Made by a program: the position numbers and the translations under genes. From positions 28,262-92,261 of IMG/VR virus record IMGVR_UViG_3300030012_002528: DNA of 64,000 nucleotides, one strand, 5' to 3'. The stretch is from a virus. Below are positions 10,501 through 23,686 of this stretch, one piece after another (within the stretch, counting starts at the first letter, position 1; every line of letters begins with the position of its first letter). The notes below the pieces were generated by a model. The model had not been told where the DNA came from and made no database searches. It saw nothing but the letters and a program-made list of their open reading frames with translations.

Positions 10501-10632
10501 TTAACAAATTTTAACGAAATTTATTTGCATAGTTTAAAATGCCGTCAGAAGCCCATAGAGACGTTTTAAGAGCATTTGGTGTGGTTTTGGATCCATCACA
10601 CACGAGACTCTGAGTTTTGCCCTTAGATGCAA
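10501..10632 (+). ncRNA. Putative structured non-coding RNA element, copy 1, with TTAACA box
   Basis: This non-coding stretch aligns without gaps to 15434-15565; by eye 97 of the first 130 positions are identical. It begins with the box TTAACA-N4-TTAACG, then TTTATTTG (a -7-like element, 10520-10527), so a transcript could begin near 10533. AAATGC (10537-10542) can pair with GCATTT (10572-10577), CGTC (10543-10546) with GACG (10560-10563), and TCTGAG (10609-10614) with CTTAGA downstream. Conserved islands are CGTTTTAAG, GCATTTG, CACACACGA and TCTGAGTTTTG. No frame of useful length is conserved. Confidence 0.55.
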
Positions 10633-10656
10633 TTGTTAATAACTTTTTCAATTAAA

Positions 10657-10688
10657 TTTGGATAGGTCAATTATTTTTCGTATACGCG
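10657..10688 (+). promoter_or_regulatory. Promoter-like site of module A
   Basis: TTTG, 20 bases, TATACGCG. The -7 match is weak, but the same arrangement (TTTGGATA ... TATACGTG) occurs at the same place in module B at 15626. Confidence 0.35.
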
Positions 10689-10715
10689 CATACGTGTGCA
10701 TTAGTGTAATGGGTG

Positions 10716-10791
10716 TTAAAATGCGTTAACATTCCTTAACACTTTTTTTATACATAGGATTTGTTTTATCCAAATTGTTTTACTATATTCG
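10716..10791 (+). promoter_or_regulatory. Triple TTAACA box and promoter of the 10833 gene
   Basis: TTAAAA, TTAACA and TTAACA lie at 10716, 10726 and 10736, an exact 10-base period. The last box ends 42 bases before the -7 element TATATTCG (10784-10791); TTTG at 10760 gives a normal -33 element. The leader then carries GGAGGGGTGG (10802-10811). Confidence 0.65.
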
Positions 10792-10832
10792 TAGAAGAGA
10801 TGGAGGGGTGGCTTTAACTTAAAAACTGTAAT

Positions 10833-11219
10833 ATGACAGCGAACGAACGAATACTGACTTGTATCAGTAAAGACTTTCCCGAAGCAATAGTGCAAAGGGC
10901 AAAGGAATTGGGTACGACTCTTGTTGACTTTAAAATGGGGGTTTTTGATGCGGAAACTAATTGCTTGATGGCAACCTTTGACAAGGTCGATGTGGACGAT
11001 GATTCGATAGTGGTGCAAACGGCTATGACCTTGCAACTGATGGAGCACGTAGGCTTTAGAATACAAACGGCTGAGGAGTCGAACTTGACTCTAAAACATC
11101 CAACCTTAGTTTTCTTCTTATGCTTTCCACCACAAAAGTTGATAGACCATGTGCGTGTAGAACTTGACCTTGATGACATACTCAGCAAGGCAATGGATGG
11201 AGACGATGACGATGAGTAA
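10833..11219 (+). CDS. Hypothetical protein with acidic tail (128 aa)
   Basis: The body is of mixed alpha/beta character without a recognised motif, and the C-terminus ends in DGDDDDE, an acidic tail of the kind seen on DNA mimics, SSB-like tails and chaperone clients. It has its own boxed promoter and is followed by a perfect terminator. Module A ahead of it is duplicated ahead of the DUF932-like gene at 15808, so both are probably expressed together. Confidence 0.7.
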   Translation: MTANERILTCISKDFPEAIVQRAKELGTTLVDFKMGVFDAETNCLMATFDKVDVDDDSIVVQTAMTLQLMEHVGFRIQTAEESNLTLKHPTLVFFLCFPPQKLIDHVRVELDLDDILSKAMDGDDDDE

Positions 11220-11233
11220 AATTGATGGGGTAT

Positions 11234-11260
11234 GGGGCTACCTTAACGGTAGCCCCTTTT
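11234..11260 (+). terminator. Rho-independent terminator
   Basis: GGGGCTACC (11234-11242) pairs perfectly with GGTAGCCCC (11248-11256) around TTAAC, followed by four T. It separates the 10833 gene from the lipoprotein gene. Confidence 0.85.
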
Positions 11261-11286
11261 ATAAAAAAATTAAAAATAAAAAACAG

Positions 11287-11430
11287 ATGAAAAAGTTAGT
11301 GTATATTGTTATTGGGTTTATTATTGTAGGCATGGTTTCTACATCATGTAGTAGAATTAACAGTTGTAAAGGACATCCTGGAATAACGCAGGATTTCGAG
11401 AACACCCAACCTAAAGGAGAACATTCTTAA
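11287..11430 (+). CDS. Small lipoprotein (47 aa)
   Basis: A signal peptide (MKKLVYIVIGFIIVGMV) leads to a lipobox-like VSTSC with Cys near residue 22, and a short soluble tail with a second Cys (CKGHPG). It would be exported and lipidated, staying on the periplasmic side. Start at ATG 11287; a longer in-frame extension upstream crosses the terminator and is not credible. Small phage lipoproteins often serve superinfection exclusion, an inference here. Confidence 0.65.
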   Translation: MKKLVYIVIGFIIVGMVSTSCSRINSCKGHPGITQDFENTQPKGEHS

Positions 11431-11451
11431 AATACGGTTTTTTTGTTCAAT

Positions 11452-11480
11452 GCCTCACCATATGGTGGGGCTTTTTTTTT
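11452..11480 (+). terminator. Rho-independent terminator
   Basis: GCCTCACC and GGTGGGGC pair around ATAT, followed by nine T. It ends the lipoprotein transcript. Confidence 0.9.
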
Positions 11481-11499
11481 GCCTAATCACGGCTTTGCC

Positions 11500-11518
11500 G
11501 TGATAAAGAATGCGCCCG
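11500..11518 (+). repeat. GTGATAAAG repeat, copy 2
   Basis: GTGATAAAGAATGCGCCCG, preceded by the hairpin ATCACGG-CTTTG-CCGTGAT and followed by an A-rich stretch, directly after a terminator as in copy 1. Confidence 0.7.
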
Positions 11519-11535
11519 AAAAACACGAAAAAAAA

Positions 11536-11558
11536 GTTATCAACATTGTGTGGATAAC
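11536..11558. other. Inverted DnaA-box pair
   Basis: TTATCAACA (11537-11545) and TGTGGATAA (11549-11557) form an inverted repeat within GTTATC...GATAAC. The second is a perfect DnaA box. Similar pairs occur at 13253 and 15075. Confidence 0.6.
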
Positions 11559-11622
11559 TTTATTTGTTTATGTAAATTATTTTTTGTATTCGCGTATACG
11601 CATATTTAGATGTTAATTTTTT

Positions 11623-11688
11623 TTAACATTCGTTAACACGTTTTTTGTTGCTTTTAATTTGGATAAAAGGAATTTATTACTATCTTTG
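11623..11688 (+). promoter_or_regulatory. TTAACA box and promoter of the 11709 gene
   Basis: TTAACA at 11623 and 11633, then 42 bases to the perfect -7 element TATCTTTG (11681-11688). TTTG at 11658 gives a -33 element with a 19-base spacer. Confidence 0.7.
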
Positions 11689-11708
11689 TTGAAGTAAAAC
11701 GAAACATT

Positions 11709-12419
11709 ATGGCAATAAATAATTATAATTTTAGGACAGGTAACATAGTACATTCTTTAGATGTTAAACATTCGGCAAATTCGAAAATAGGGAAAGGTAT
11801 AGTATTGCAAACGTATCATTACAGTATTGAACAGGTAGAAAATAATGATTTTACCTTGGATGCATTTAACTGTATGGACTGTCCATATAGTTTTAATCAA
11901 AACAATGGTAAAAGTGGTAAATGCTATACTCATAAAGGTATGCAGTTAATGGGGTTATTATCTAAACTTGAAAGCCTACACAAACAAAATTTGCAAGGTA
12001 AGATAAAAGAATTTAATTCAGATAATTTTAGAAAGTTTATTTCCCATAAATCAATCAAGACAGTTGACCTTATCCGATTCGGTGCCTATGGCGAAGCGGT
12101 TACACTACCTTTAGAAGTTAGGGATACATTATTCGATGTTAAAAATATTCTAAAGTGCAAAGTTACGTCATATACGCATCAATGGAGAACGGCAAACGAA
12201 ACCCGTTTCATGGCTTCTACGCATAACCTTGCCGAAATGCTACAAGCGAAAAGACTAGGTTACCGATGCTTTACCGTAACTTCTGAAGCAATAGAAGATG
12301 CTTTTAATTGTCCTGCTTCTAAAGAAAGCGAACGTAAAAAGACCTGTGTACAATGTGGTCTATGCGATGGTCAAGTTAGCGGCAAACGTAAAAAGGATAT
12401 CTATATCCTTAAGCACTAA
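11709..12419 (+). CDS. Conserved Cys-rich phage protein (236 aa), DUF7227-like
   Basis: Cys clusters at both ends (CMDCPYS and KCYTHKG near residues 55-80; CPAS near 205 and CVQCGLCDG near 218) frame a conserved core: RFGAYGEAVTLP, YTHQWR, FMASTHNLAEMLQAKRLGYR. I recognise this as a phage protein family of unknown function, possibly DUF7227. The paired Cys suggest zinc or an iron-sulfur cluster. It has its own boxed promoter and is followed by a terminator. It is not radical-SAM, as no CxxxCxxC motif is present. Confidence 0.75.
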   Translation: MAINNYNFRTGNIVHSLDVKHSANSKIGKGIVLQTYHYSIEQVENNDFTLDAFNCMDCPYSFNQNNGKSGKCYTHKGMQLMGLLSKLESLHKQNLQGKIKEFNSDNFRKFISHKSIKTVDLIRFGAYGEAVTLPLEVRDTLFDVKNILKCKVTSYTHQWRTANETRFMASTHNLAEMLQAKRLGYRCFTVTSEAIEDAFNCPASKESERKKTCVQCGLCDGQVSGKRKKDIYILKH

Positions 12420-12424
12420 AAAAT

Positions 12425-12446
12425 AGGGCAATTAATTTTGCCCTTT
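12425..12446 (+). terminator. Terminator hairpin after 11709 gene
   Basis: AGGGCAA pairs with TTGCCCT around an AT loop; the T tract is short and interrupted. Confidence 0.65.
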
Positions 12447-12484
12447 CAATTCTTTTTATTAACTTCAATTTAAATTAAAAAACA

Positions 12485-12679
12485 ATGGGATACAAAACAA
12501 TATTTTATTACGAAACCTACGATGGCATAAGACATCATTTCCTAACACGATTTTGCTACCGTCCAAGTGCAACATTGGCTTGGAAACAATTAAAGAAAAT
12601 GCTTAGTGAGAAGAAAGATAATATTCTCTGTATAGGTTATGATATAGGAGATGAAAATATTATTGAAATTAAATCATGA
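12485..12679 (+). CDS. Hypothetical small protein (64 aa)
   Basis: A 64-residue aromatic- and Cys-containing protein of unknown function (MGYKTIFYYETYDGIRHHF). Start at ATG 12485 after an A-rich leader. Its stop overlaps the ATG of the next small gene. Confidence 0.6.
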   Translation: MGYKTIFYYETYDGIRHHFLTRFCYRPSATLAWKQLKKMLSEKKDNILCIGYDIGDENIIEIKS

Positions 12680-12813
12680 ATATATCAGTTAAACTAAACT
12701 ATAACGGAAGTATAACTTTATTTGCAGTAGTGCAAGGACAGTTAATAAGTAAAGAATATTCTTGTGGAGTAGGTAAAGCGAAAAAACTTTTTCAAGAAAA
12801 ATTTGGAAATTAG
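12676..12813 (+). CDS. Hypothetical small protein (45 aa)
   Basis: ATG 12676 overlaps the preceding stop (ATGA). The 45 residues look like three beta strands and a basic helix (SITLFAVVQGQLISKEYSCG). No family is recognised. The -33 element of the next promoter lies inside its last codons. Confidence 0.5.
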   Translation: MNISVKLNYNGSITLFAVVQGQLISKEYSCGVGKAKKLFQEKFGN

Positions 12814-12833
12814 AAAAACATTTTGTAACTTAG
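12802..12833 (+). promoter_or_regulatory. Promoter of the 12850 gene
   Basis: TTTG, 20 bases, TAACTTAG. The leader AGAGGAAACAATG is nearly identical to that of the 13333 gene. An ATG at 12842 opens a three-codon frame whose stop overlaps the true ATG at 12850. Confidence 0.65.
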
Positions 12834-12849
12834 AGGAAACAATGAAACA

Positions 12850-13053
12850 ATGAAAAAAGAAATTTATAAAATAGGAACACTACTAAAAGAGACTAAACTA
12901 TCAAATGCTCAATTAACGAAAGTTATACAGACAAGTATGGATGACTTAATCCAAGCAGGAGATACAGAAGACGAAGCCCTAGATAGACTATCCAAGATAA
13001 TGAATATATCAGGAGTCAAAGTAAGGAAAGCATACCTAGGGAATTTGAAATAA
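12850..13053 (+). CDS. Small helical protein (67 aa), possible HTH
   Basis: A 67-residue helical protein; residues about 15-40 (KLSNAQLTKVIQTSMDDLIQ) could form a helix-turn-helix, but this is weak. It is the first of a series of small genes each with its own promoter, terminator and facing minus-strand promoter. Confidence 0.6.
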   Translation: MKKEIYKIGTLLKETKLSNAQLTKVIQTSMDDLIQAGDTEDEALDRLSKIMNISGVKVRKAYLGNLK

Positions 13054-13074
13054 TTTGTTTCGTTGTTCATTTGA

Positions 13075-13143
13075 GCCTTGCTCTCACTAGACCGAGATGC
13101 TTTAGATTAGCACGGGGTCTACCGAGGGTAAGGCTTTTTTTTT
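13075..13143 (+). terminator. Large three-part terminator hairpin
   Basis: GCCTTGCTCTC (13075-13085) pairs over all 11 positions with GAGGGTAAGGC (13124-13134) if two G-U pairs are allowed; inside, TAGACC pairs with GGTCTA and TGCT with AGCA. Nine T follow. It is much larger than the other terminators here. Confidence 0.75.
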
Positions 13144-13156
13144 GCCACGATAAATC

Positions 13157-13173
13157 GTGATAAAGAAGTGAGG
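13157..13173 (+). repeat. GTGATAAAG repeat, copy 3
   Basis: GTGATAAAGAAGTGAGG, where the first bases belong to the hairpin CACGAT-AA-ATCGTG (13146-13159), after the terminator of the 12850 gene. Confidence 0.65.
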
Positions 13174-13205
13174 CAAATAAAAAATAAAAAAAACAGGCGT
13201 AAAAA

Positions 13206-13237
13206 CAAAGATACGACTTTTTTTTAAATTATCCAAA
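13206..13237 (-). promoter_or_regulatory. Minus-strand promoter facing the 12850 gene
   Basis: On the minus strand TTTG (13237-13234), 20 bases, TATCTTTG (13213-13206), a perfect match to the consensus. Transcription would run left, through the GTGATAAAG repeat and the large hairpin, antisense to the 12850 gene. Confidence 0.6.
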
Positions 13238-13252
13238 TTTTTCTTGCGAAAG

Positions 13253-13285
13253 TTACCAACATATTGTCGCTGAGAATGTTGATAA
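13253..13285. other. Inverted DnaA-like box pair
   Basis: TTACCAACA (13253-13261) and TGTTGATAA (13277-13285) are inverted, each one or two bases away from the DnaA consensus. Confidence 0.4.
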
Positions 13286-13291
13286 GTTTTA

Positions 13292-13323
13292 TTTGGATTT
13301 TAAATTTATTTGTTTTATATTAG
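13292..13323 (+). promoter_or_regulatory. Promoter of the 13333 gene
   Basis: TTTG, 20 bases, TATATTAG, followed by AGGAAACAAATG. The first ATG (13333) is so close to the expected start point that the second ATG (13345) may be the real start. Confidence 0.6.
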
Positions 13324-13332
13324 AGGAAACAA

Positions 13333-13686
13333 ATGAGATATATTATGCAATTAAACACTATTGAAGACTTGAGACATCACGGAGACTTGGCTCTCTTATT
13401 ACTTAAGATAAGAATGACCTTAACCTATAAGAAGGTAGAAGGATTCATTGTACACGCTGACGAGGATAAGATAAGTTTTATTCCCGAAGGAGAGTACCAT
13501 CCAACTCTTTGTAAAAAAGAACTTGCACCCAGTGGTTACGAATGGGACGAGGGGAGAGATGTTCTTGAAATTTGTGTAAACTGCGAAGAGAACTACGAAG
13601 GATGCGAGCCCACCTTACCATACAATAAACTTGCGGAGGTATTATGTGGAGGCAAGTTTTACGGAGACGTTGCTTTCGGTAAGTAA
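13333..13686 (+). CDS. Hypothetical protein (117 aa)
   Basis: Mixed alpha/beta protein with a Cys cluster (CVNCEENYEGC near residues 83-93). No family is recognised. ATG 13333 gives 117 residues, ATG 13345 (MQLNTIEDL) gives 113; the promoter position favours the second but cannot decide. Second cassette of the small-gene series. Confidence 0.65.
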   Translation: MRYIMQLNTIEDLRHHGDLALLLLKIRMTLTYKKVEGFIVHADEDKISFIPEGEYHPTLCKKELAPSGYEWDEGRDVLEICVNCEENYEGCEPTLPYNKLAEVLCGGKFYGDVAFGK

Positions 13687-13717
13687 CGCACACTGGTAGC
13701 ACTGTTTTCGGTTAGAG

Positions 13718-13746
13718 TCCTCACCCAATGGGTGGGGATTTTTTTT
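13718..13746 (+). terminator. Rho-independent terminator
   Basis: TCCTCACCC (13718-13726) pairs with GGGTGGGGA (13730-13738) around AAT, followed by eight T. Confidence 0.9.
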
Positions 13747-13770
13747 AACTTTTTTTTTGAAATTTTTTTT

Positions 13771-13787
13771 GTGATAAAGAGTGTGCG
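13771..13787 (+). repeat. GTGATAAAG repeat, copy 4
   Basis: GTGATAAAGAGTGTGCG, after a terminator and a T-rich spacer, followed by an A tract and the facing minus-strand promoter. Confidence 0.7.
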
Positions 13788-13815
13788 CCCGAGGTGAAAA
13801 AAAAAGAGTCCTCCA

Positions 13816-13847
13816 CAAAGATACAACTTTTTTTCGATATATCCAAA
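13816..13847 (-). promoter_or_regulatory. Minus-strand promoter facing the 13333 gene
   Basis: On the minus strand TTTG (13847-13844), 20 bases, TATCTTTG (13823-13816). The transcript would start near TGGAGGACTC and run left across the repeat and terminator of the 13333 gene. Confidence 0.6.
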
Positions 13848-13866
13848 TTATTTTAGATAAATTTTT

Positions 13867-13932
13867 TTAACGTTTATTAACAGCGTGGTAATAAATTAAG
13901 TTTGGTATTTCCATTTATTTTAACTAACTTTG
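13867..13932 (+). promoter_or_regulatory. TTAACA box and promoter of the 13985 gene
   Basis: TTAACG at 13867 and TTAACA at 13877, then 42 bases to the perfect -7 element TAACTTTG (13925-13932). TTTG at 13901 gives a -33 with a 20-base spacer. The leader begins with the hairpin GAGGTC-AAC-GACCTC. Confidence 0.7.
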
Positions 13933-13984
13933 AGAGGTCAACGACCTCGAACGGGGTTGCTTTTTTTAACCTTAAATGTAAACA

Positions 13985-14236
13985 ATGAAACATTTAGCAT
14001 TAAGTGAGATGAATGGAAATACTTTCTATTCAAATTCGTTAGGAATGACTCTTAGCGTAAAAGACAACAAAGTCTTTGATTACAAAGGTATTGAGATGCC
14101 TATTGATGACTTGCAAGTAGACACCTTGTACGTTGAATTTCTTGACCAACCAAAGTTTCAAGAACAAAGGTACAAAGAGTATCTTGCAAAGGTAAAAGAA
14201 ATGGGCAACTATTCGCCTCTATTGTTTAACTCTTAA
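13985..14236 (+). CDS. Hypothetical protein (83 aa)
   Basis: An 83-residue protein with a beta-rich N-terminal half and a basic helical C-terminal part. No family is recognised. Expressed from the boxed promoter and followed after 11 bases by a second small gene of the same cassette. Confidence 0.65.
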   Translation: MKHLALSEMNGNTFYSNSLGMTLSVKDNKVFDYKGIEMPIDDLQVDTLYVEFLDQPKFQEQRYKEYLAKVKEMGNYSPLLFNS

Positions 14237-14247
14237 ATTGTTTTCAA

Positions 14248-14511
14248 ATGGAAAATGCTTTAAACCCAAATGTCACTGGCATTTACATCTTGGAAGGTAG
14301 ACCTACCCTTCCCTACCGTTACTATCTCAAGAAGATAGATTCTACTCATTTTCAAATGGCATACGTTGCTGATGGCGAGGATGCTTCGATTGTGAATGAT
14401 GCTTTTTGTTACCATATTGGCGAGCATCGTCAGAGACCTTACTATGCTGACGTTAGGTCTTGGCTAAAAGGAGGCGAAGCCCCAACTGACAAGACCTACA
14501 CTTGGGAATAG
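14248..14511 (+). CDS. Hypothetical protein (87 aa)
   Basis: An 87-residue protein with many aromatic residues (LPYRYYLKKIDSTHFQMAY) and Gly/Pro turns, so probably a small beta domain. No family is recognised. Second gene of the third cassette; it lies antisense to the transcript expected from the promoter at 14643. Confidence 0.65.
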   Translation: MENALNPNVTGIYILEGRPTLPYRYYLKKIDSTHFQMAYVADGEDASIVNDAFCYHIGEHRQRPYYADVRSWLKGGEAPTDKTYTWE

Positions 14512-14520
14512 GCTCACGTG

Positions 14521-14536
14521 CCCACCGAGAGGTGGG
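14521..14536 (+). terminator. Hairpin after the 14248 gene, no T tract
   Basis: CCCACC-GAGA-GGTGGG, a perfect GNRA-capped hairpin directly followed by TATC and a GTGATAAAG repeat. Lacking a T tract it may stabilise the 3' end rather than terminate. Confidence 0.55.
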
Positions 14537-14540
14537 TATC

Positions 14541-14557
14541 GTGATAAAGAGTGTGCG
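14541..14557 (+). repeat. GTGATAAAG repeat, copy 5
   Basis: GTGATAAAGAGTGTGCG, identical to copy 4. An inverted partial copy (CTTTATCAC) lies 60-70 bases downstream, so the two could pair in RNA. Confidence 0.7.
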
Positions 14558-14642
14558 AGAAAAGACCGAAAAAAAAAGCAATGGGAGGGCGAGAAAAGAA
14601 AAAAATCAAAAATGTCTTTATCACAAATTCAAGACTCCTCCA

Positions 14643-14674
14643 CTAAGATACAAAATACTTTTCAATAATCCAAA
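14643..14674 (-). promoter_or_regulatory. Minus-strand promoter facing the 14248 gene
   Basis: On the minus strand TTTG (14674-14671), 20 bases, TATCTTAG (14650-14643), then TGGAGGAGTC, nearly the same start as the transcript at 13816. Confidence 0.6.
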
Positions 14675-14701
14675 CACTTTAACATTTTTTTTAATTTAAT
14701 T

Positions 14702-14778
14702 TTAACACTCGTTAACTTGTTTTTAACACCCTTTAACATTTTGGCTATTGCATATGTCCTTACAATGTACTACTTTTG
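14702..14778 (+). promoter_or_regulatory. Double TTAACA box pair and promoter of the 14802 gene
   Basis: TTAACA, TTAACT, TTAACA and TTAACA lie at 14702, 14712, 14723 and 14733. The last ends 32 bases before the perfect -7 element TACTTTTG (14771-14778); ATTG at 14747 is a weak -33. Confidence 0.6.
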
Positions 14779-14801
14779 TCTTAAACAAATTATTTAAATT
14801 T

Positions 14802-14963
14802 ATGAAAGCAGTAATCCGTAATATCAAGACAGGTAAGTATCGCGTAGCCCCTGTGTACGCACGTTATAAAAAAGACCGCGTTGAGGTCATACGCGCGTTG
14901 GAGCAGTCGCTACCCGCCCACGAGCGGGTGGTGGAGGTGCATCTGAACGAAAGGGGCAAGTAG
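14802..14963 (+). CDS. Small basic protein (53 aa)
   Basis: The ATG at 14802 (MKAVIRNIKTGKYRV) lies 23 bases after the -7 element; a longer frame from 14748 would begin before the transcription start and is rejected. The protein is basic, probably a small strand-helix fold. Codon use is strikingly richer in G and C (GCG, GTG, GCC, CGC) than the neighbours, which hints at a different origin. Confidence 0.6.
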   Translation: MKAVIRNIKTGKYRVAPVYARYKKDRVEVIRALEQSLPAHERVVEVHLNERGK

Positions 14964-14969
14964 CCCCAA

Positions 14970-14987
14970 GCCCACCGAAAGGTGGGC
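14970..14987 (+). terminator. Hairpin after the 14802 gene, no T tract
   Basis: GCCCACC-GAAA-GGTGGGC, perfect and GNRA-capped, followed by ATC and the repeat, exactly as at 14521. Confidence 0.55.
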
Positions 14988-14990
14988 ATC

Positions 14991-15007
14991 GTGATAAAGA
15001 ATGTGCG
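14991..15007 (+). repeat. GTGATAAAG repeat, copy 6
   Basis: GTGATAAAGAATGTGCG, followed by a run of 15 A and then a minus-strand promoter. Confidence 0.7.
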
Positions 15008-15037
15008 TGAGCAAAAAAAAAAAAAAATTATCCCATA

Positions 15038-15069
15038 CTAAGTTACGATTTTTTTTTGATATATCCAAA
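15038..15069 (-). promoter_or_regulatory. Minus-strand promoter facing the 14802 gene
   Basis: On the minus strand TTTG (15069-15066), 20 bases, TAACTTAG (15045-15038). The transcript would run left through a long U stretch, the repeat and the hairpin. Confidence 0.55.
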
Positions 15070-15074
15070 TAAAG

Positions 15075-15247
15075 TTATCAACACGATGTGGGTAAGTTGT
15101 AGGTGTTAAATTATGTTATATATTAGGTTATATCAGATAAATTAACTATATGGGGGTGTCGGCATTTCGGCAAAGTTATTTTACCTACAATAGTTAACAT
15201 ACTTTAACTATATATATTATTATATATAACATATATATACTATAGAG
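15075..15247. other. Candidate origin: DnaA-box pair and AT-rich segment
   Basis: TTATCAACA (15075-15083) and TGTGGGTAA (15087-15095) form an inverted DnaA-box-like pair. About 110 bases further, 15205-15247 is almost pure A/T with ATATAT runs, suited to unwinding. A TTAACA box (15194-15209) lies directly at its left edge. Confidence 0.45.
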
Positions 15248-15374
15248 CCATATAACGGCATATTCCTTTTCCTTTTAGATAAATTAACGTGTTGCGTTAA
15301 CACTTTTTAACGCAGAATACTTGCGTATGTGCAAGTTGTGACAGGTAGAGTCTTCTCACACTCGGTTTTTTGGG

Positions 15375-15406
15375 TTTGGAAAATAGTGGTAAAATGTGTA
15401 ACTTAG
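15375..15406 (+). promoter_or_regulatory. Orphan plus-strand promoter
   Basis: TTTG, 20 bases, TAACTTAG. No gene follows for 400 bases; the transcript would run into the second RNA element. Confidence 0.5.
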
Positions 15407-15433
15407 TGGGTTATTATAAGCATACTTTTGCAA

Positions 15434-15565
15434 TTAACGATTTTTAACACAATATATTTGGATAATTTAAAATCCCTTGAGAGGCTCATATTTGCGTTTT
15501 AAGGGCATTTGAGGTTCTTTTGGAACAACCACACACGAAGGTCTGAGTTTTGAGCATACAGACGA
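15434..15565 (+). ncRNA. Putative structured non-coding RNA element, copy 2, with TTAACA box
   Basis: Ungapped relative of 10501-10632. It begins TTAACG-N4-TTAACA, then the perfect -7 element TATATTTG (15453-15460) with TTTG at 15427, so an RNA would start near 15466. AAAT-CCCTT (15470-15478) can pair with AAGGG-C-ATTT (15501-15510), GGTTC (15513-15517) with GGAAC (15522-15526) in part, and GTCTG (15541-15545) with CAGAC (15559-15563). The first helix differs in sequence from copy 1 but can form in both. Confidence 0.55.
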
Positions 15566-15625
15566 TTTGACCTATGATTAGGACATATGGTGTTGGTAAG
15601 TTGTTAGTAACTATATATATGTATA

Positions 15626-15656
15626 TTTGGATATGTCATATATTCTTATATACGTG
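15626..15656 (+). promoter_or_regulatory. Promoter-like site of module B
   Basis: TTTGGATA at 15626 and TATACGTG at 15649 with a 19-base spacer, matching the site at 10657 in module A. Confidence 0.35.
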
Positions 15657-15700
15657 TGCGTGTATTCCTATTGTAGGTAAATTTCTTAGCCGAAATTTTT

Positions 15701-15766
15701 TTAACATCTGTTAACACGTAGATTGATAATTTAATTAGAATAATTCAAAATGAATCACTATATTTA
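15701..15766 (+). promoter_or_regulatory. TTAACA box and promoter of the 15808 gene
   Basis: TTAACA at 15701 and 15711, then 42 bases to TATATTTA (15759-15766). The leader carries GGAGGGGATG (15777-15786), 31 bases before the ATG, the same distance as at 10833. Confidence 0.65.
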
Positions 15767-15807
15767 CATCAGCGATGGAGGGGATGCCTAATACTAAATA
15801 ATACATT

Positions 15808-16713: not shown

Positions 16714-16719
16714 AGTAAA

Positions 16720-16740
16720 ATCCCCTCTTCGGAGGGGTTA
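16720..16740 (+). terminator. Terminator overlapping a TTAACA box
   Basis: CCCCTC-TTCG-GAGGGG is capped by a stable tetraloop; the flanking AA and TT extend it. The first half of the next TTAACT/TTAACA box is its 3' flank. Confidence 0.75.
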
Positions 16741-16782
16741 ACTTTCTTTAACAATTGGATTGATATATTATCCTTAACTTAG
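16738..16782 (+). promoter_or_regulatory. Boxed promoter (N21 class) of the 16797 operon
   Basis: TTAACT (16738), TTAACA (16748), 21 bases, TAACTTAG (16775-16782). No TTTG at -33. Confidence 0.7.
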
Positions 16783-17338: not shown

Positions 17339-17347
17339 AAAGAAATA

Positions 17348-17566: not shown

Positions 17567-17580
17567 ATAAAAAGAATTCG

Positions 17581-17625
17581 TTAACATTTTTTAACAAATG
17601 AATTCACATTTTATTCATATATTTG
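17581..17625 (+). promoter_or_regulatory. Boxed promoter (N21 class) of the 17646 operon
   Basis: TTAACA (17581), TTAACA (17591), 21 bases, TATATTTG (17618-17625), a perfect -7 element. No TTTG at -33. Confidence 0.75.
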
Positions 17626-17645
17626 TGGAAACAACATTAGAAAAC

Positions 17646-17810: not shown

Positions 17811-17831
17811 ATAATTTTAAATAAAAAAGAC

Positions 17832-18131
17832 GTGAAAGAAAATAAAATAACATTATTTGACCAAGAAATTTACAACACAATTCTAATACATACTGCGAGA
17901 ACGTGGGAACGTATTAGAGTTAAGCAACCACATCGAGAAATGGCTTTAGACAATATAGGCTCAACAGAATGTATTGAACAAGTAGCAATTCATATCATTT
18001 ATGACGATGTTATCCAAGAGTTCTTAGAAACAAGAGATGGAGAGGTGTGGGCAAAAGTAGATGGTGGTACAAGTGATTCTTACATCGAATCAATGGCAGA
18101 AGAAACAATAACAAAACATTATCTTAAATAA
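17832..18131 (+). CDS. Hypothetical protein (99 aa), GTG start
   Basis: The start is GTG 17832 after an A-rich leader. A helical protein without a recognised motif. It shares MKENK at the N-terminus with the WDWLMPVV family nearby but lacks the rest of that family. Confidence 0.6.
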   Translation: MKENKITLFDQEIYNTILIHTARTWERIRVKQPHREMALDNIGSTECIEQVAIHIIYDDVIQEFLETRDGEVWAKVDGGTSDSYIESMAEETITKHYLK

Positions 18132-18137
18132 AAAGAA

Positions 18138-18281
18138 ATGAAAGAAATTAAATATCAAGGGATGGAAATTGGAATCTATTACTACATAGATGAAAAAACT
18201 AATCAAAAGGTTTACGATGTAGAGTACATCAGAGAAGAATTCGAAAGTAAACTTGAGGAACTTTTAAATGAGGACAAATGA
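18138..18281 (+). CDS. Small protein (47 aa)
   Basis: ATG 18138 after the recurring AAATAAAAAGAA start region; a short strand pair (MEIGIYYYIDEKTNQKVYD) and an acidic helix. The stop overlaps the ATG of the next gene (ATGA), so translation is likely. Function unknown. Confidence 0.55.
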   Translation: MKEIKYQGMEIGIYYYIDEKTNQKVYDVEYIREEFESKLEELLNEDK

Positions 18282-18619
18282 AAGAGAACAAGTTAATAGC
18301 AGAGTTTGAGCAGTTACCTACAGAGGTATTCAAGCCAAATGATATTTTGAACTATTACCACAATGGTGCTTGGTATGAGGAACACGAACTATCTTATGAA
18401 ATATCTTGGGATTGGTTGATGCCTGTAGTGGAGAAGATAAACTTATTAGACGATTATAGATACACTTTCCTTATTGCTTCAATGGATACTCAAATTGTAG
18501 ACAACATCACGAATGATGTGATTGTAGAGGTCAGTTGCAAACACTCTGTTGACGAGTTAATTAAAAGTGTGTACGAAGCAGTCGTAGAATTTATTAAACA
18601 ATTAAATAAGGAATCATGA
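18278..18619 (+). CDS. WDWLMPVV-family protein 1 (113 aa)
   Basis: First of four paralogs in this window. Shared marks are MKENKLIAEF at the N-terminus, SWDWLMPVVEKI in the middle, and VYEAVVEFIKQLNK at the C-terminus, with variable inserts between. The family is common in Bacteroidota mobile elements and phages as far as I recall; function unknown. Coupled to the next paralog by an ATGA overlap. Confidence 0.7.
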   Translation: MKENKLIAEFEQLPTEVFKPNDILNYYHNGAWYEEHELSYEISWDWLMPVVEKINLLDDYRYTFLIASMDTQIVDNITNDVIVEVSCKHSVDELIKSVYEAVVEFIKQLNKES

Positions 18620-19011
18620 AAGAGAATAAGTTAATAGCAGAATTTATGGGTGCGAAACCCATTGTACTTGGTAACTCAACCGAATATGAAATGTATGGGA
18701 TTGTCGAATGCATCAATGATGGTGTAGATGAAAAGCATTTTTTTATTGATGATGAAATGGAATACCACACATCTTGGGATTGGTTGATGCCCGTAGTGGA
18801 GAGGATTAGGGGACTTGAAGAAGGTATGTTAGTAGAGAGGATAGACATTATGCCAAACGATGGAGTAGCAATTCATTATTCGCACCCACCTAAGATGATT
18901 GTAGTAGACACATCAAAACGTGTAAATACTTTAAATGCTACCTACGATGCAGTCGTGAAGTTTATTGAAGAATATAATAAAGTAAAAAGAAATGAGTTAC
19001 AAGGTCTTTGA
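18616..19011 (+). CDS. WDWLMPVV-family protein 2 (131 aa)
   Basis: Second paralog: MKENKLIAEFMGAKP, HTSWDWLMPVVERI, and YDAVVKFIEEYNK. It has a longer insert between the second and third block than its neighbour. The start overlaps the previous stop. Function unknown. Confidence 0.7.
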   Translation: MKENKLIAEFMGAKPIVLGNSTEYEMYGIVECINDGVDEKHFFIDDEMEYHTSWDWLMPVVERIRGLEEGMLVERIDIMPNDGVAIHYSHPPKMIVVDTSKRVNTLNATYDAVVKFIEEYNKVKRNELQGL

Positions 19012-19078
19012 ATTGCTAATGATATTAGGTATAATTACTTTGAGTGGAATGTTTTTACTTAGTTTTATTTTGCTTTAA
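18992..19078 (+). CDS. Tiny membrane peptide (28 aa)
   Basis: ATG 18992 opens a 28-residue frame that is almost entirely hydrophobic (LLMILGIITLSGMFLLSF). It overlaps the end of the preceding gene in another frame and ends inside the next TTAACA box. One of several single-helix peptides in this genome. Confidence 0.4.
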   Translation: MSYKVFELLMILGIITLSGMFLLSFILL

Positions 19079-19119
19079 CATTTCTTAACAAACGCCCATC
19101 GGAATAATTTGTATATTTA
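19075..19119 (+). promoter_or_regulatory. Boxed promoter (N21 class) of the 19144 gene
   Basis: TTAACA (19075), TTAACA (19085), 21 bases, TATATTTA (19112-19119). No TTTG at -33. Confidence 0.7.
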
Positions 19120-19143
19120 CATCAGAAAAAAACAACAGAAAAT

Positions 19144-20151
19144 ATGGAAAACTTAAAACTGATAAAAGAAGGATTAGGGGAATTGAATATGAACCTACTT
19201 ACATCGTCTGAGATAGACGATATGAATGACCGACTAAGACAAGGTCACACAATATGGATGGCGAATGAAAGGATTCGTGAGAAGATATGGAACGAACGTC
19301 TATCCCTTAACAATTGGGCAAAGGATACATTCAAAGAAATTTTCCAAGACTTAATGTTTGGAATCTTGGAATGCTATGCTGATGCATCTTCAGATGATAG
19401 GGGATTAGTGATTGATGGCGATGACTCTGACAAGAGTTTCTTGATAGAAACTGAGTACAGATACGACCATATGTTTGTAAAATTTAGATGTGGGGAAGCC
19501 AAGAATCTACATTGGCATTCCGATGTGACTATTGTACTACGTACTCCTCACAAAGGAACTAGTCTTCATGATGCTGAACCTTTGTTCGAAGTAAAAATGG
19601 ATTTACCTAAATTAAGTTCGAGCAAAGACGATAGAAAGTTTTTTGACTACGATGATAACATAGAGTTCTTAGAATCGAGAGTAAAAGTATTCGAGTTTAT
19701 TCGCAGTAAGAAAAGCGAAATAGATAGTTTTTTATTTGATTTAAAAATTCGGTACAATCATTTTATTGCGTGTGAAGAAACGCAGTCTAAGTACAAAGTA
19801 GAGATTCCAAGAGAGTTTAGTGGTAGTGCTGAGTCAATGGTAAGAAATGCATTGATGGAAAAGTTTAAGGAAGGTCACGAGATACTTGTACCTACTCAGT
19901 TAGGTACTGATAAGTATTTTGGATTGGAAGCAAGGGATTGGCGTATAAGTGGAGGTCACTCTTTTAAATTACTTAAAACGAATAAGCGAGATGGCGACAT
20001 CAAAAGTTATCGCATAGAGATAACTGATGGCACATTAAAGGGTAGAGATATGTTAATCGAATCATATGCTATATACCATCTATTTGATAAGATAGCGAAT
20101 GAAGATGTAGTGACCACCGAAGCAGAGACTATCGAAGAGAATTTCAGTTAA
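19144..20151 (+). CDS. Hypothetical protein (335 aa)
   Basis: A large soluble protein with a helical N-terminal third, a beta-rich middle (DHMFVKFRCGEAKNLHWHSD) and a further mixed domain. No family is recognised. It is the only gene between its boxed promoter and a terminator, the same single-gene layout as the DUF932-like gene. Confidence 0.7.
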   Translation: MENLKLIKEGLGELNMNLLTSSEIDDMNDRLRQGHTIWMANERIREKIWNERLSLNNWAKDTFKEIFQDLMFGILECYADASSDDRGLVIDGDDSDKSFLIETEYRYDHMFVKFRCGEAKNLHWHSDVTIVLRTPHKGTSLHDAEPLFEVKMDLPKLSSSKDDRKFFDYDDNIEFLESRVKVFEFIRSKKSEIDSFLFDLKIRYNHFIACEETQSKYKVEIPREFSGSAESMVRNALMEKFKEGHEILVPTQLGTDKYFGLEARDWRISGGHSFKLLKTNKRDGDIKSYRIEITDGTLKGRDMLIESYAIYHLFDKIANEDVVTTEAETIEENFS

Positions 20152-20170
20152 TTTGTTTTTTCGTGTTTTG

Positions 20171-20196
20171 CCCCACCTGTAGTGGGTGGGGTTTTT
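20171..20196 (+). terminator. Terminator abutting a TTAACA box
   Basis: CCCCACC pairs with GGTGGGG (20171-20177, 20185-20191), followed by five T that lead straight into the next TTAACA. Confidence 0.85.
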
Positions 20197-20239
20197 AACA
20201 TCTCTTAACATAATAATTAACATTTTATTAATATATTTG
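20195..20239 (+). promoter_or_regulatory. Boxed promoter (N21 class) of the 20260 operon
   Basis: TTAACA (20195), TTAACA (20205), 21 bases, TATATTTG (20232-20239). A third TTAACA lies at 20217. Confidence 0.75.
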
Positions 20240-20259
20240 TGAAAACAAAATTAGAAAAT

Positions 20260-20799
20260 ATGGGATACGTAGCAAACTACACAAAAGAAAGCATTGATTA
20301 CCGAGAAGACTTAGCACTACTAAGAGTGATAGGTGTACCACTAAAGTATAATGAAGAGAAGGGTTGGGAATGCATAATTGAGGATTCTGAATTTACTTAC
20401 GATTTAAGCCATACTACAGATGACAAATGGCAGTCAGTAGATTCAATATATAAGTCTTGGAGATGTGTCTTCTTTATTGCGAGAGAAGTATGTACTTCCA
20501 TAGGGAGTGCAACACACAGAATATCTTCTTTAAAAGAATCTTTAGCAGAAGCCTTACTGCATCACGATAAAATTATGGTAATGGATTGTGCCAAACGTCT
20601 TGCAATGGAAAAATCAAAAGTAACAGATGCAAAGGTTCTACGTGAACGATTGATGCACTATTACGAATTTGATTTAGGTAATAACCTCATTAGTGAGTTA
20701 GAGTTGGACAAGTTAATTAAATTGTACTTGACAAATGATGCCGAGAGGATAGCATTCCTTGATAGTTACATAGAGTACTTAATTGAGATAAACGCTTAG
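20260..20799 (+). CDS. Hypothetical protein (179 aa)
   Basis: The start is placed at ATG 20260 (MGYVANYTKESIDY); a GTG at 20239 is the last base of the -7 element and cannot be transcribed. The protein is mostly helical in its second half (DAKVLRERLMHYYEFDLG). No family is recognised. First gene of a nine- to ten-gene operon. Confidence 0.65.
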   Translation: MGYVANYTKESIDYREDLALLRVIGVPLKYNEEKGWECIIEDSEFTYDLSHTTDDKWQSVDSIYKSWRCVFFIAREVCTSIGSATHRISSLKESLAEALLHHDKIMVMDCAKRLAMEKSKVTDAKVLRERLMHYYEFDLGNNLISELELDKLIKLYLTNDAERIAFLDSYIEYLIEINA

Positions 20800-20801
20800 A
20801 G

Positions 20802-20999
20802 ATGCAGAGTAACGAATACGTAATTTACGACAGAGCAAACGATAGAATGCTACGTTTTGAGGAGAGTGGAGAGGTAATCATCTTTGGCAACAAGCAAGAA
20901 GCAATTGATGACTTGTACGGAAACGAAGAGGTTGTAGCGATTGCAGACTTGTCAAACGATAATAAACAAATTATCTTAAAACAAATCGAAAATGAGTGA
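20802..20999 (+). CDS. Hypothetical protein (65 aa)
   Basis: A small acidic alpha/beta protein (EYVIYDRANDRMLRFEESGE). No family is recognised. It overlaps the next gene by 8 nt. Confidence 0.6.
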   Translation: MQSNEYVIYDRANDRMLRFEESGEVIIFGNKQEAIDDLYGNEEVVAIADLSNDNKQIILKQIENE

Positions 21000-21183
21000 G
21001 GTATTGATGGACAACTTTGGATTGGAGTGGAAGACTAGCAAAGGAGAGATAACCTATGGCGATTGGGCATACAATTGGGATAGTGGCGATGTGGTAGGTG
21101 TAGATGAAGATGATGATTTATATCTAAGAAATGAAACTTGCACAAAGGTAGTTCCGTTTGATGAAGCAAATGATTGGTTTTAA
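20992..21183 (+). CDS. Hypothetical acidic protein (63 aa)
   Basis: A 63-residue acidic, Trp-rich protein (EWKTSKGEITYGDWAYNWDS). No family is recognised. It overlaps its upstream neighbour and is followed by the recurring AAAAAGAAATG start region. Confidence 0.6.
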   Translation: MSEVLMDNFGLEWKTSKGEITYGDWAYNWDSGDVVGVDEDDDLYLRNETCTKVVPFDEANDWF

Positions 21184-21193
21184 TTAAAAAGAA

Positions 21194-21418
21194 ATGGAAG
21201 AGAATAGATTAATAGCAGAATTTATGGACGTTAATCTCATTGAAGGTCAACGTGGAGACTACCACACCTCATGGGATTGGTTGATTCCCGTAGTGGAGAA
21301 GTGTTTTCAAGAAGAAGGTAAACACTACGTCATTAACGATGCACTACTAACCATCAACATAGATGAAGTTCACGAAGCAGTCGTGAAATTTATTAAGGAA
21401 TACAATAAGAAATCGTGA
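21194..21418 (+). CDS. WDWLMPVV-family protein 3 (74 aa)
   Basis: Third and shortest paralog: MEENRLIAEFMDV, HTSWDWLIPVVEKC and VHEAVVKFIKEYNKKS, with almost no insert, so it shows the minimal family core. Coupled to the fourth paralog by a GTGA overlap. Function unknown. Confidence 0.7.
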   Translation: MEENRLIAEFMDVNLIEGQRGDYHTSWDWLIPVVEKCFQEEGKHYVINDALLTINIDEVHEAVVKFIKEYNKKS

Positions 21419-21729
21419 AAGAAAATAAACTAATTGCAGACTTTATGGGTGTGCAATACAAGTCAGATGAAGACTACTTTAAAGAGTTGGCAGAGATGCG
21501 AGAAGATGGTATCTTCTACGAGCAAGGATATATGGAGAGTCAACTCAACTACCACGAGTCTTGGGATTGGTTAATGCCTGTAGTAGGTAAAATAACACGA
21601 GATGAAAAGTATTGGGAGAACGAATACCGAGAGTATCTAATGGATATTATTCCTTACGCAATCATAGAAGATGTCTACGATGCAGTAGTAGGATTTATCA
21701 AAAATTGTGTATCTTTAGAGAAAGAATAG
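21415..21729 (+). CDS. WDWLMPVV-family protein 4 (104 aa), GTG start
   Basis: Fourth paralog: MKENKLIADFMGVQY, HESWDWLMPVVGKI and VYDAVVGFIKN. The start is GTG 21415 overlapping the stop of paralog 3. Function unknown. Confidence 0.7.
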   Translation: MKENKLIADFMGVQYKSDEDYFKELAEMREDGIFYEQGYMESQLNYHESWDWLMPVVGKITRDEKYWENEYREYLMDIIPYAIIEDVYDAVVGFIKNCVSLEKE

Positions 21730-21731
21730 AG

Positions 21732-22223
21732 ATGAATATATTTGTACTACATAAAGACCCAATTGTATCTGCAAAGATGCATTGCGACAAGCACGTACCT
21801 AAGATGGTCGTGGAGTTATATCAGCAGATAGGCTCTGCCTTGCGTAGGTATGGTGCAACAGATGATGTTATGCCGACAACCAAAGGTGGTACGCCATTGA
21901 AAGGTGGCTACCACAATCATCCTTGTACACGATGGGTAGGAGATAGCCGAGATAATTTTAGATGGGCAGTACAACATGGGTTAGCGTTGTGCGAGGAATT
22001 TAAACTTAGATACAATAAACCTCACTACTGCGAGGATGGTATCCGTATGATGGGAGAGTTGGCAGACTTGATTCCTCAAGGGGAGTTGACTGAGTTTGCT
22101 CAAGCAATGCCCGATGAATGCAGACAACCAAGTGCAGTACTTGCGTATCGTATCTACTACAAAGTAGATAAGTCACGCTTTGCTAAGTGGGAGAGAGGAA
22201 GAGAAGCACCGAGTTGGTGGTAA
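21732..22223 (+). CDS. Conserved phage protein (163 aa) with CDKHVPKM motif
   Basis: The N-terminus MNIFVLHKDPIVSAKMHCDK followed by HVPKMVVELYQ, then NHPCTRW, a helical middle and a C-terminal FAKWERGREAPSWW identify a family that is widespread in marine phages. Its function is not established. The ATG at 21732 is used; a longer frame extends upstream into paralog 4 and is not supported. Confidence 0.75.
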   Translation: MNIFVLHKDPIVSAKMHCDKHVPKMVVELYQQIGSALRRYGATDDVMPTTKGGTPLKGGYHNHPCTRWVGDSRDNFRWAVQHGLALCEEFKLRYNKPHYCEDGIRMMGELADLIPQGELTEFAQAMPDECRQPSAVLAYRIYYKVDKSRFAKWERGREAPSWW

Positions 22224-22245
22224 TGTTAATTTTAAATAAAAAGAA

Positions 22246-22563
22246 ATGACTGATAAGTTAGTTAATTCGCTATGGGAAGCGATAGAAAGAGAAGGATATT
22301 TTAAAGAAGATGTTTTAAGTTCGTCACGTAAGCGTGAGTTTGTAGATGTTCGTGTTGCTTTATCCCAATTACTTTATTATAGATTAGGACTTACGCAGTA
22401 CAAAATTGCACTAATTCTTAATCGCCATGAGCATTCTACTATAAATCATTATGTCAATCACATGGATGAGAGAGATAATTTTGATTACAAAGAACTGACA
22501 AGGGTACTCAATAGAGTTGTAGACAAATACGAGGAACACATTGAAAAATTTCAGTACGCATGA
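22246..22563 (+). CDS. DnaA domain-IV-like DNA-binding protein 1
   Basis: The 105 residues contain SRKREFVDVRVALSQLLYYR, LTQYKIALILNRHEHSTINH and a further helix. This matches the C-terminal DNA-binding domain of DnaA: helices, a basic loop, and the signature D/E-H-S/T-T. Here the signature reads EHST. The AAA+ ATPase part of DnaA is absent. It could bind the DnaA boxes at 1970, 11549 and 15075. Coupled by overlap to a second copy. Confidence 0.7.
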   Translation: MTDKLVNSLWEAIEREGYFKEDVLSSSRKREFVDVRVALSQLLYYRLGLTQYKIALILNRHEHSTINHYVNHMDERDNFDYKELTRVLNRVVDKYEEHIEKFQYA

Positions 22564-22931
22564 AAAGTAATTTAGTTGATGAACTTTGGCAAGTCGTTGA
22601 GAATCAAGGATTTAACAAAGAAGAAATTGTAGGCAGTTCACGTAAGCGTGACTTAGTTGATGTGCGAATAGCAATGGCTCACGTATTACATTTTAGAGTG
22701 GGAATGACTCAATCAAAGATAGCCAAGATACTTGGACTTGCAGACCACACTACTATCAATCATTATGTTAACAAATGTAAAGCACGTAATGATTATGATT
22801 ATAGAATAATGATGAACGAGTTTGCAGAAGTTATTGAGAAGTATGAGGATGCTGAAATTTTAAATGAGATAAAAAAAGTTTGGAATAAGCATAAGGGAGG
22901 TATGTTAGATTTTTATCCACCAATAGACTAA
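22560..22931 (+). CDS. DnaA domain-IV-like DNA-binding protein 2
   Basis: A paralog of the preceding protein with SSRKRDLVDVRIAMAHVLHF and LGLADHTTINHYVNK, where the DnaA signature DHTT is intact. It has a longer C-terminal helix and tail (123 aa). Two such proteins in tandem suggest a heterodimer or two binding specificities; both lack any ATPase domain. Confidence 0.7.
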   Translation: MKSNLVDELWQVVENQGFNKEEIVGSSRKRDLVDVRIAMAHVLHFRVGMTQSKIAKILGLADHTTINHYVNKCKARNDYDYRIMMNEFAEVIEKYEDAEILNEIKKVWNKHKGGMLDFYPPID

Positions 22932-22932
22932 T

Positions 22933-23154
22933 ATGAAAGCACGATTAGATAAAAAAGACGAGCAACTAAAAGTTGCTAAACATTATCTTTTGGAAGCGAG
23001 GACTTCTATCCTCAAGGCAAATAAGATTGCAGAGAACTTACACGAGGAAACTCAAAACGAATTAAATAAAAAAGTCATCTTATTGATTACTGAGATTGAG
23101 ATGATGGAGAAGGCTTTTGAGTGGGAACTTGATGAAAGTTTTAACATTTCTTAA
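22933..23154 (+). CDS. Coiled-coil protein (73 aa)
   Basis: A Lys/Glu-rich helical protein with heptad spacing over nearly its whole length. No family is recognised. It is the last gene of this operon, and the next boxed promoter begins inside its final codons. Confidence 0.6.
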   Translation: MKARLDKKDEQLKVAKHYLLEARTSILKANKIAENLHEETQNELNKKVILLITEIEMMEKAFEWELDESFNIS

Positions 23155-23185
23155 CATTTGATGTCAAAAATAATCCATATATTTG
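23141..23185 (+). promoter_or_regulatory. Boxed promoter (N21 class) of the 23208 gene
   Basis: TTAACA (23141), TTAACA (23151), 21 bases, TATATTTG (23178-23185). Confidence 0.75.
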
Positions 23186-23207
23186 TGTAAACAAATTATT
23201 AAATACT

Positions 23208-23645
23208 ATGAAACAAGTTTGGAAATTCAATGATGGAGGTAGAGCAGATGCAGGGTTCAAAGGACTCACAGGGGATTGTGGGGTTCGTGCTTTGGCTATC
23301 GCCTTGCAACTACCTTACAAAGAAGTCTATGACAAGGTTAATGAGTTCTGTAAAGAAGAGAAGCCGAGTAAGAGACGTAGAGGTAAGTCCTCTGCAAGAA
23401 CAGGTATTCACACTCACACCTTTCATAAGATAACCGAACACTATGGATTAAAATGGATTCCTAAGATGACTATTGGTTCGGGGTGTACCACGCATCTTAG
23501 AGAAGACGAATTACCAAAGGGAAGGATTATATGTAGAGTGAGTAGACATTATACGGCAGTAGTTGACGGCACCATCAACGACACATATGATTGTTCAAGA
23601 GGAGGTACGAGAGCCGTATATGGATATTGGGTATTACCTTGTTAA
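23208..23645 (+). CDS. Putative papain-like peptidase or transglutaminase-fold protein
   Basis: A 145-residue protein of a family common in phages: FNDGGRADAG, then GDCGVRALAIAL with a candidate nucleophile Cys24, and VSRHYTAVVDGTINDTYDCS with candidate His and Asp, ending in a VYGYW motif. Cys-His-Asp in that order and spacing fits a papain-like fold. Activity is unproven. It has its own boxed promoter; the next one starts within its stop codon. Confidence 0.7.
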   Translation: MKQVWKFNDGGRADAGFKGLTGDCGVRALAIALQLPYKEVYDKVNEFCKEEKPSKRRRGKSSARTGIHTHTFHKITEHYGLKWIPKMTIGSGCTTHLREDELPKGRIICRVSRHYTAVVDGTINDTYDCSRGGTRAVYGYWVLPC

Positions 23646-23686
23646 CATTTTTTAACAAACGATTAACAAGTAAATTATTAACTTAG
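23642..23686 (+). promoter_or_regulatory. Boxed promoter (N21 class) of the 23703 operon
   Basis: TTAACA (23642), TTAACA (23652), 21 bases, TAACTTAG (23679-23686). A third TTAACA is at 23663. Confidence 0.75.

Follow-up and report, generated by a model that had tools for sequence, protein, structure and literature searches.

Phased TTAACA direct repeats in a Bacteroidota phage as predicted sites of a host OmpR/PhoB-type activator

Response regulators of the OmpR/PhoB family typically recognize hexamers arranged head to tail one helical turn apart. The Pho box of Bacillus subtilis PhoP consists of TT(A/C/T)ACA repeats with a period of about 11 base pairs (bp), and the cyanobacterial Pho box follows PyTTAAPyPy(T/A). 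A precedent for the use of such sites by viruses comes from cyanophages, in which genes of P-SSM2 (pstS) and S-PM2d are controlled by the host PhoBR system through Pho boxes with the core PyTTAAPy (PMC10976474). Here, a tandem repeat of related sequence, TTAACA-N4-TTAACA (referred to as the box), is described in a 64,000-nucleotide window, the whole stretch of DNA analysed, which covers positions 28262-92261 of the 92,261-base virus record IMGVR_UViG_3300030012_002528.

As in the cyanophages, whose boxes match the host PhoB site, the promoters of this phage carry boxes with a TTAAC-like core. Unlike in the cyanophages, up to 16 strict copies occur here in a fixed promoter register, they stand in a block of uncharacterised genes without a known phosphate gene, the box recurs in many unrelated Bacteroidota phages, and the link to a regulator is a predicted one. 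The B. subtilis PhoP and cyanobacterial boxes likewise have TTAACA-type half-sites, arranged head to tail, ahead of sigma-A promoters, but the phage version belongs to another phylum and has mostly two half-sites with a 10-bp period, ending 21 bases before the -7 element (N21; other spacers are written in the same way). From the Bacteroidota sigma-A promoter (-33 TTTG, -7 TAnnTTTG) the phage uses the -7 element and keeps the -33 element at N32 and N42 sites, whereas at N21 sites the box replaces it. The layout, with a box in place of the -35 contact, also resembles the activator-dependent promoters of lambda CII (TTGC-N6-TTGC at -35) and the middle promoters of T4 MotA; unlike in those systems, no phage-encoded binder is common to the box-bearing phages compared, and the box is also present in host chromosomes. 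Host PhoBR control of phage genes is known from cyanophages; what is new is the taxon, the strict phasing over many sites, the occurrence in unrelated phages and a core promoter that is separable from the box. A search of the open literature found no description of the box or of a Bacteroidota Pho box.

Copies, register and conservation of the box

The pattern TTAAC-N5-TTAAC is present in 17 copies in the window against 0.40 expected, and none of 100 shuffled sequences reached 17. Sixteen copies, the number given for 10.5-23.7 kilobases (kb) by an initial annotation made from the sequence, lie on the plus strand within 10,501-23,656, starting at 10501, 10726, 11623, 13867, 14702, 14723, 15194, 15297, 15434, 15701, 16738, 17581, 19075, 20195, 23141 and 23642; the sole minus-strand pair (10715-10729) abuts the 10726 box. 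No copy lies in the 28 kb of the record outside the window, and the control pattern likewise gave none. Over the whole record, 17 TTAAC pairs have a period of 10, and each other period between 6 and 25 is represented by 0-3 pairs, with two for period 11; the sole 11-bp steps begin at 14712 and 23652.

Eleven of the 16 plus-strand boxes are followed by a TAnnTT-type -7 element at exactly 21 (n=6), 32 (n=1) or 42 (n=4) bases, precisely where the initial annotation had placed them. With the relaxed -7 pattern TAnnTT[TAC][GA], offset 21 collects six boxes and offset 42 four. When 16 boxes were placed at random in the same block in 20,000 trials, the sum for 21, 32 and 42 never came to 11, and the top count at any offset was 4. 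The -7 elements, which are of the sigma-A type and lie a short way upstream of genes, had been described as TAnnTTTG-like; this is true of all 11 in the relaxed form, but the strict form TAnnTTTG is found at only about half of them (3/6 N21 sites and 2/4 N42 sites), the others being TAACTTAG, TATATTTA and TATATTCG, which deviate at one or two positions. The remaining five boxes (10501, 14702, 15194, 15297 and 15434) have no -7 element at 21, 32 or 42 bases. Counted as single half-sites before -7 elements, TTAAC shows maxima at N21, N31, N42 and N52 in the block, and no such register pattern was seen on the plus strand outside it.

Inspection of the -33 slot bore out the proposed distinction between N21 sites without TTTG and N42 sites mostly with it: at most N32 and N42 sites, TTTG or TTG is retained some 20 bases ahead of the -7 element, and at N21 sites the slot falls inside the box. 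This phage, its close relatives and unrelated phages all have box centres near -41.5, -52.5 and -62.5, on one helical face.

Close relatives were found via the DNA polymerase and taken from IMG/VR; two of them (G004 and G003) span the block from about 17 kb and about 19.7 kb on, respectively. Comparison of six orthologous promoter pairs revealed changes at 3 of 72 box positions and at none of 48 positions of the -7 element, as against 25% of positions in the 4-base gap and 22% in the 21-base spacer. In a third relative (G001), a box stands at N32 before TATCTTTG with TTTG in the -33 slot. The initial annotation had named the absence of spacer clustering in the full genome or in relatives as grounds for abandoning its proposal; the clustering held in both. 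The gene between the boxes at 23141 and 23642 (23141-23657) is absent from two relatives (L037 and L038), and the junction coincides with the box, which looks as if cargo genes were swapped by recombination between boxes.

Six promoters of the block, all on the plus strand, are of the N21 type. The box at 16738-16753 precedes TAACTTAG (16775-16782), that at 17581-17596 precedes TATATTTG (17618-17625), that at 19075-19090 precedes TATATTTA (19112-19119), and those at 20195-20210 and 23141-23156 both precede TATATTTG (20232-20239 and 23178-23185); the second and third are kept in L037, and the fourth in both L037 and L038. The sixth is a triple box, TTAACA-N4-TTAACA-N5-TTAACA (23642-23668), followed after N10 by TAACTTAG (23679-23686), with the third half-site present as GTAACA in two relatives. 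The four N42 promoters, on the same strand, combine boxes at 10726-10741, 11623-11638, 13867-13882 and 15701-15716 with TATATTCG (10784-10791), TATCTTTG (11681-11688, with the -33 TTTG retained), TAACTTTG (13925-13932) and TATATTTA (15759-15766), respectively. A plus-strand array of four half-sites at 14702-14738 (14702, 14712, 14723 and 14733; periods 10, 11 and 10) leads at N32 to TACTTTTG (14771-14778). Plus-strand boxes without a phased -7 element lie at 15194-15209 and 15297-15312.

The box in other viruses and in host chromosomes

Other viruses have the box as well: it is widespread among phages of Bacteroidota, including jumbo phages, and is present in hosts. Figures from the pattern scans of viruses and genomes are samples among the matches listed and not totals. 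In IMG/VR, TTAACA-N4-TTAACA-N20..22-TAnnTTTG occurs in at least 119 stretches, most commonly with N21. In the 93-kb phage G030, three to six repeats form arrays with a step of exactly 10 bp that mostly end 11 bases before TACCTTTG, and a 322-kb contig (G029) bears 12 boxes on a single strand of its final 20 kb. Boxes with an 11-bp period are just as sharply in register, with 2, 46, 56, 1 and 4 matches listed for N19, N20, N21, N22 and N23; N20 and N21 account for 102 of these 109 unique matches, and additional peaks lie at N31 (11) and N32 (16). The 9-bp-period control gave 7, 20, 6, 31 and 24 for N19 to N23 among the matches listed, figures that are swollen by related coding sequences and form a broad distribution unlike the 11-bp peak. 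In the 334-kb jumbo phage contig G037 (loci L312-L328), the box precedes another core, GAAAC-N14..18-CGTATA, unlike the Bacteroidota sigma-A promoter; among the 25 such cores found, TTAAC stands at -14 in 16 and at -24 in 15. The same scan found no such box in the GenBank phages similar to box-bearing contigs (11b, hemulen6-1 and Danklef_1).

For hosts, one genome per bacterial or archaeal species was scanned with the 10-bp pattern at N19-N23. Bacteroidota contribute 75 of the 80 matches listed, and in four of the remaining five the spacer is off register (N19 or N23); the spacers among the matches found were N19 3, N20 25, N21 52, N22 33 and N23 7. In 198 Bacteroidota genomes there were 11 exact matches against 1 for the reversed pattern, and with one mismatch permitted, 16 Pedobacter-group genomes gave about 40 against 3 for the reversed control. 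Box usage is sparse in hosts and dense in phages. Genes recurring behind the host box, named by reading their sequences, encode a small secreted CarboxypepD-like protein (Sphingobacteriaceae), DapF (Flavobacterium), a MoxR ATPase (Bacteroidales), and GLPGLI and TonB-type proteins.

Among 21 OmpR/PhoB-family genes of one Pedobacter and one Flavobacterium genome, the Pedobacter PhoB-type gene stands out by its upstream repeats, TTAACA-N5-TTAACT-N5-TTAACG-N4-GTTACA-N10-TACTTTCG, with periods of 11, 11 and 10. The encoded protein obtains its top scores from PhoB models, yet stays under their cut-offs; a Bacteroidales regulator (L222) passes the NCBI Bacteroidota PhoB model with 322 bits against a cut-off of 270 and has TTAACA-N4-TTAACA-N22-TAACTTTG ahead of its own gene. 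All 31 Bacteroidota genomes tested have a PhoB-type regulator, as do 28 of 29 Sphingobacteriaceae, where the PhoB-type promoters mostly retain TTAACA-type 11-bp repeats such as TTAACaatttgTTAATattggcTTAAC.

The phoB-type gene of Flavobacterium has a histidine kinase gene after it and a divergent TonB receptor gene alongside. The receptor promoters of six Flavobacteriaceae follow the pattern NTAACN-N5-NTAACN-N5-TTTACA-N9-(-7), with half-sites ending at N9, N20 and N31. Five receptor promoters with the regulator-like motif alongside have half-site spacings chiefly of 11 (8 pairs) and 22 (4), a pattern that was not seen on their opposite strand. Judging from its arrangement and domains, this locus is probably the counterpart of Fjoh_0543-0545 of F. 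johnsoniae, where Fjoh_0545, listed with phoBR, increases by about 8 log2 units upon phosphate depletion and PhoB by about 3 (PMC8115612).

In the phage and in the host phoB-linked promoters alike, the box consists of head-to-tail direct repeats with a TTAACA/NTAACA core. The phage half-sites at N20/N21 and N31/N32 coincide with the two upstream half-sites of the host phoB-linked box: half-sites end at N21 and N31 in the phage and at N9, N20 and N31 in the host, and the 11-bp phage boxes end at N20/N21. Half-site and register are common to both, and site 23642, which is nearest to the host Pho-type geometry, has all three host-type half-sites (TTAACA-N4-TTAACA-N5-TTAACA-N10-TAACTTAG).

Candidate regulators and competing explanations

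Since it is shared by this phage, its relatives and unrelated phages, the geometry is most naturally taken as that of an activator regulon, as the initial annotation had held; a regulon specific to the phage does not follow, since the box is widespread in phages and hosts. The binder suggested at that time was one of two winged-helix proteins or, alternatively, a host factor. The protein encoded at 1453-1833 on the minus strand has no significant match to a DNA-binding family, and that at 46871-47413 on the plus strand, beside a DnaB-like helicase gene, matches HTH_45 weakly; neither had relatives in the box-rich phages searched, and there is no support for either as the binder. Two DnaA-C-terminal-like proteins (22246-22931, plus strand) represent the sole other DNA-binding family found in the plus-strand module, and the second of their genes is absent from two box-bearing relatives. 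No candidate regulator was found to be common to this phage and G030, G029, G037 or G048; the protein matches of this phage are RecA and one marginal hit in G030, and one marginal DnaA-C hit in G048. A host factor is favoured because the compared box-rich phages have no regulator in common.

The boxes are accordingly best described as predicted sites of a host OmpR/PhoB-type activator, most likely the phylum-wide PhoB-type regulator, a proposal that has about an even chance of being correct. Two winged-helix domains of the regulator would bind the TTAACA repeats head to tail, one helical turn apart, and the bound protein would contact or recruit the RNA polymerase of the host at promoters of the Bacteroidota sigma-A type with a TAnnTTTG -7 element. 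At N21 the box would cover the -33 region and substitute for it (class II), and at N32 and N42 it would act from one or two turns upstream of the retained -33 element (class I). The contiguous block at 10.5-24.2 kb, made up of small, mostly uncharacterised plus-strand genes, would in this way come under a host two-component system, with phosphate starvation as the probable signal.

Several observations weigh against this proposal. Repeats mostly recur every 10 bp in the phage and every 11 bp in the host phoB-linked boxes, and the promoter-proximal third half-site (N10) is missing from most phage boxes; it is these two discrepancies that keep confidence near one half. Because the 11-bp period is not the rule in the phage, the element is regarded as working like a Pho box rather than as a proven member of that class. 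More distant PhoB-type orthologues have no repeats upstream, the host genes behind 10-bp boxes are mainly envelope genes (dapF, moxR, GLPGLI, TonB) instead of classic phosphate genes, and predicted phage Pho boxes can fail or be unreliable, as noted in the cyanophage work (PMC10976474). Pedobacter has the box, yet pstC was not found in 13 Pedobacter-group genomes (G017, G256-G267) in which a PhoB-type regulator is present; these bacteria may take up phosphate by another route, or the regulator may have another role.

The preference of exact 10-bp boxes for host envelope genes is also the starting point of the main rival explanation, which is possible though rather unlikely: another host OmpR-family regulator with the same half-site, of the envelope-stress kind (RprY or a CpxR-like protein, for example), would read the 10-bp phage boxes and PhoB only the 11-bp ones. 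OmpR and CpxR sites are themselves 10-bp direct repeats. In B. fragilis, RprX/RprY is essential, and it changes porins in E. coli (PMC4072883). The same Pedobacter and Flavobacterium genomes, however, have no comparable box upstream of their 19 other OmpR-family genes, RprY orthologues included; phages use 10- and 11-bp boxes at nearly the same register; and the Pedobacter phoB-type promoter itself combines periods of 11, 11 and 10. RprY in particular was considered as the reader, but nqrA, a known target of it in P. gingivalis, showed no box upstream in the five genomes examined. An activator encoded by the phage (the DnaA-C-like pair, the HTH_45 protein or an unrecognised protein) would account for the concentration of so many sites in a single block of this phage, which does encode DnaA-C-like and HTH proteins, and would parallel T4 MotA and lambda CII, the latter of which binds a direct repeat near -35. 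It is nevertheless improbable, as unrelated box-rich phages have no such protein in common with this one and host chromosomes carry the box before conserved host genes.

Two further explanations concern repression and direct polymerase contacts. The overlap of the N21 box with the -33 region means that a bound protein could block the polymerase, so that the boxes might be repressor operators or dual sites; given that N21 promoters are without a -33 element of their own and that N32 and N42 boxes lie in phase upstream of -33, the usual activator layout, this is held to be still less probable. Helical phasing across several turns and stacked arrays would also be expected of UP-element-like contacts for the RNA polymerase alpha C-terminal domains, but TTAACA, with its conserved C, is a specific half-site that lies over the -33 slot at N21, is uncommon in host promoters and in jumbo phage G037 goes with another core promoter, which makes such contacts very improbable. 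TTAACA as an ordinary, TTGACA-like -35 element was rejected, the spacing being 21 instead of 17 and copies recurring each turn.

Neighbouring features and biological meaning

The box at 10501-10516 (TTAACA-N4-TTAACG, plus strand, without a phased -7 element) and that at 15434-15449 (plus strand) head two copies of a noncoding repeat lying directly 3' of them (10521-10675 and 15455-15562), which is also present in relative L037 (10200-10357). It has no Rfam match and is possibly a structured RNA, one copy being more stably folded than shuffled sequence (z -2.25) and the other not (z 0.18). The N42 promoter at 15701 has a DUF932 protein gene downstream, for which no viral relatives were found by search. 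Paralogous small proteins (MKENKLIAEFM...HTSWDWLMPVVEKI) are encoded in the block at 18278-19011 and 21194-21729; jumbo phage G037 has distant relatives of them. The plus-strand module as a whole (2022-48829) encodes RecA, PhoH, both ribonucleotide reductase subunits, DNA polymerase, and S-adenosylmethionine decarboxylase-like and SET-domain proteins. A crAss-like phage, an idea raised by the two-block layout, was rejected, as the giant minus-strand proteins match structural and tail families and not virion RNA polymerase.

A wider, joint reading, held tentatively and at somewhat less than an even chance, is that many unrelated Bacteroidota phages, jumbo phages among them, place a stage of expression under a host PhoB-type regulator through in-register TTAACA arrays, with box and core promoter as separable modules, as suggested by the G037 box before GAAAC-N16/17-CGTATAA. 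Little is known about transcription control in Bacteroidota phages, and the old question of which host factors phages recruit in bacteria with the unusual TAnnTTTG promoter would become testable. If the joint reading is correct, there would be a readable promoter signature for Bacteroidota phages and a proposed Pho-type motif for the phylum, infection programmes across the phylum would be tied to the phosphate status of the host, and host nutrient signalling would be linked directly to phage gene expression outside the cyanophages.

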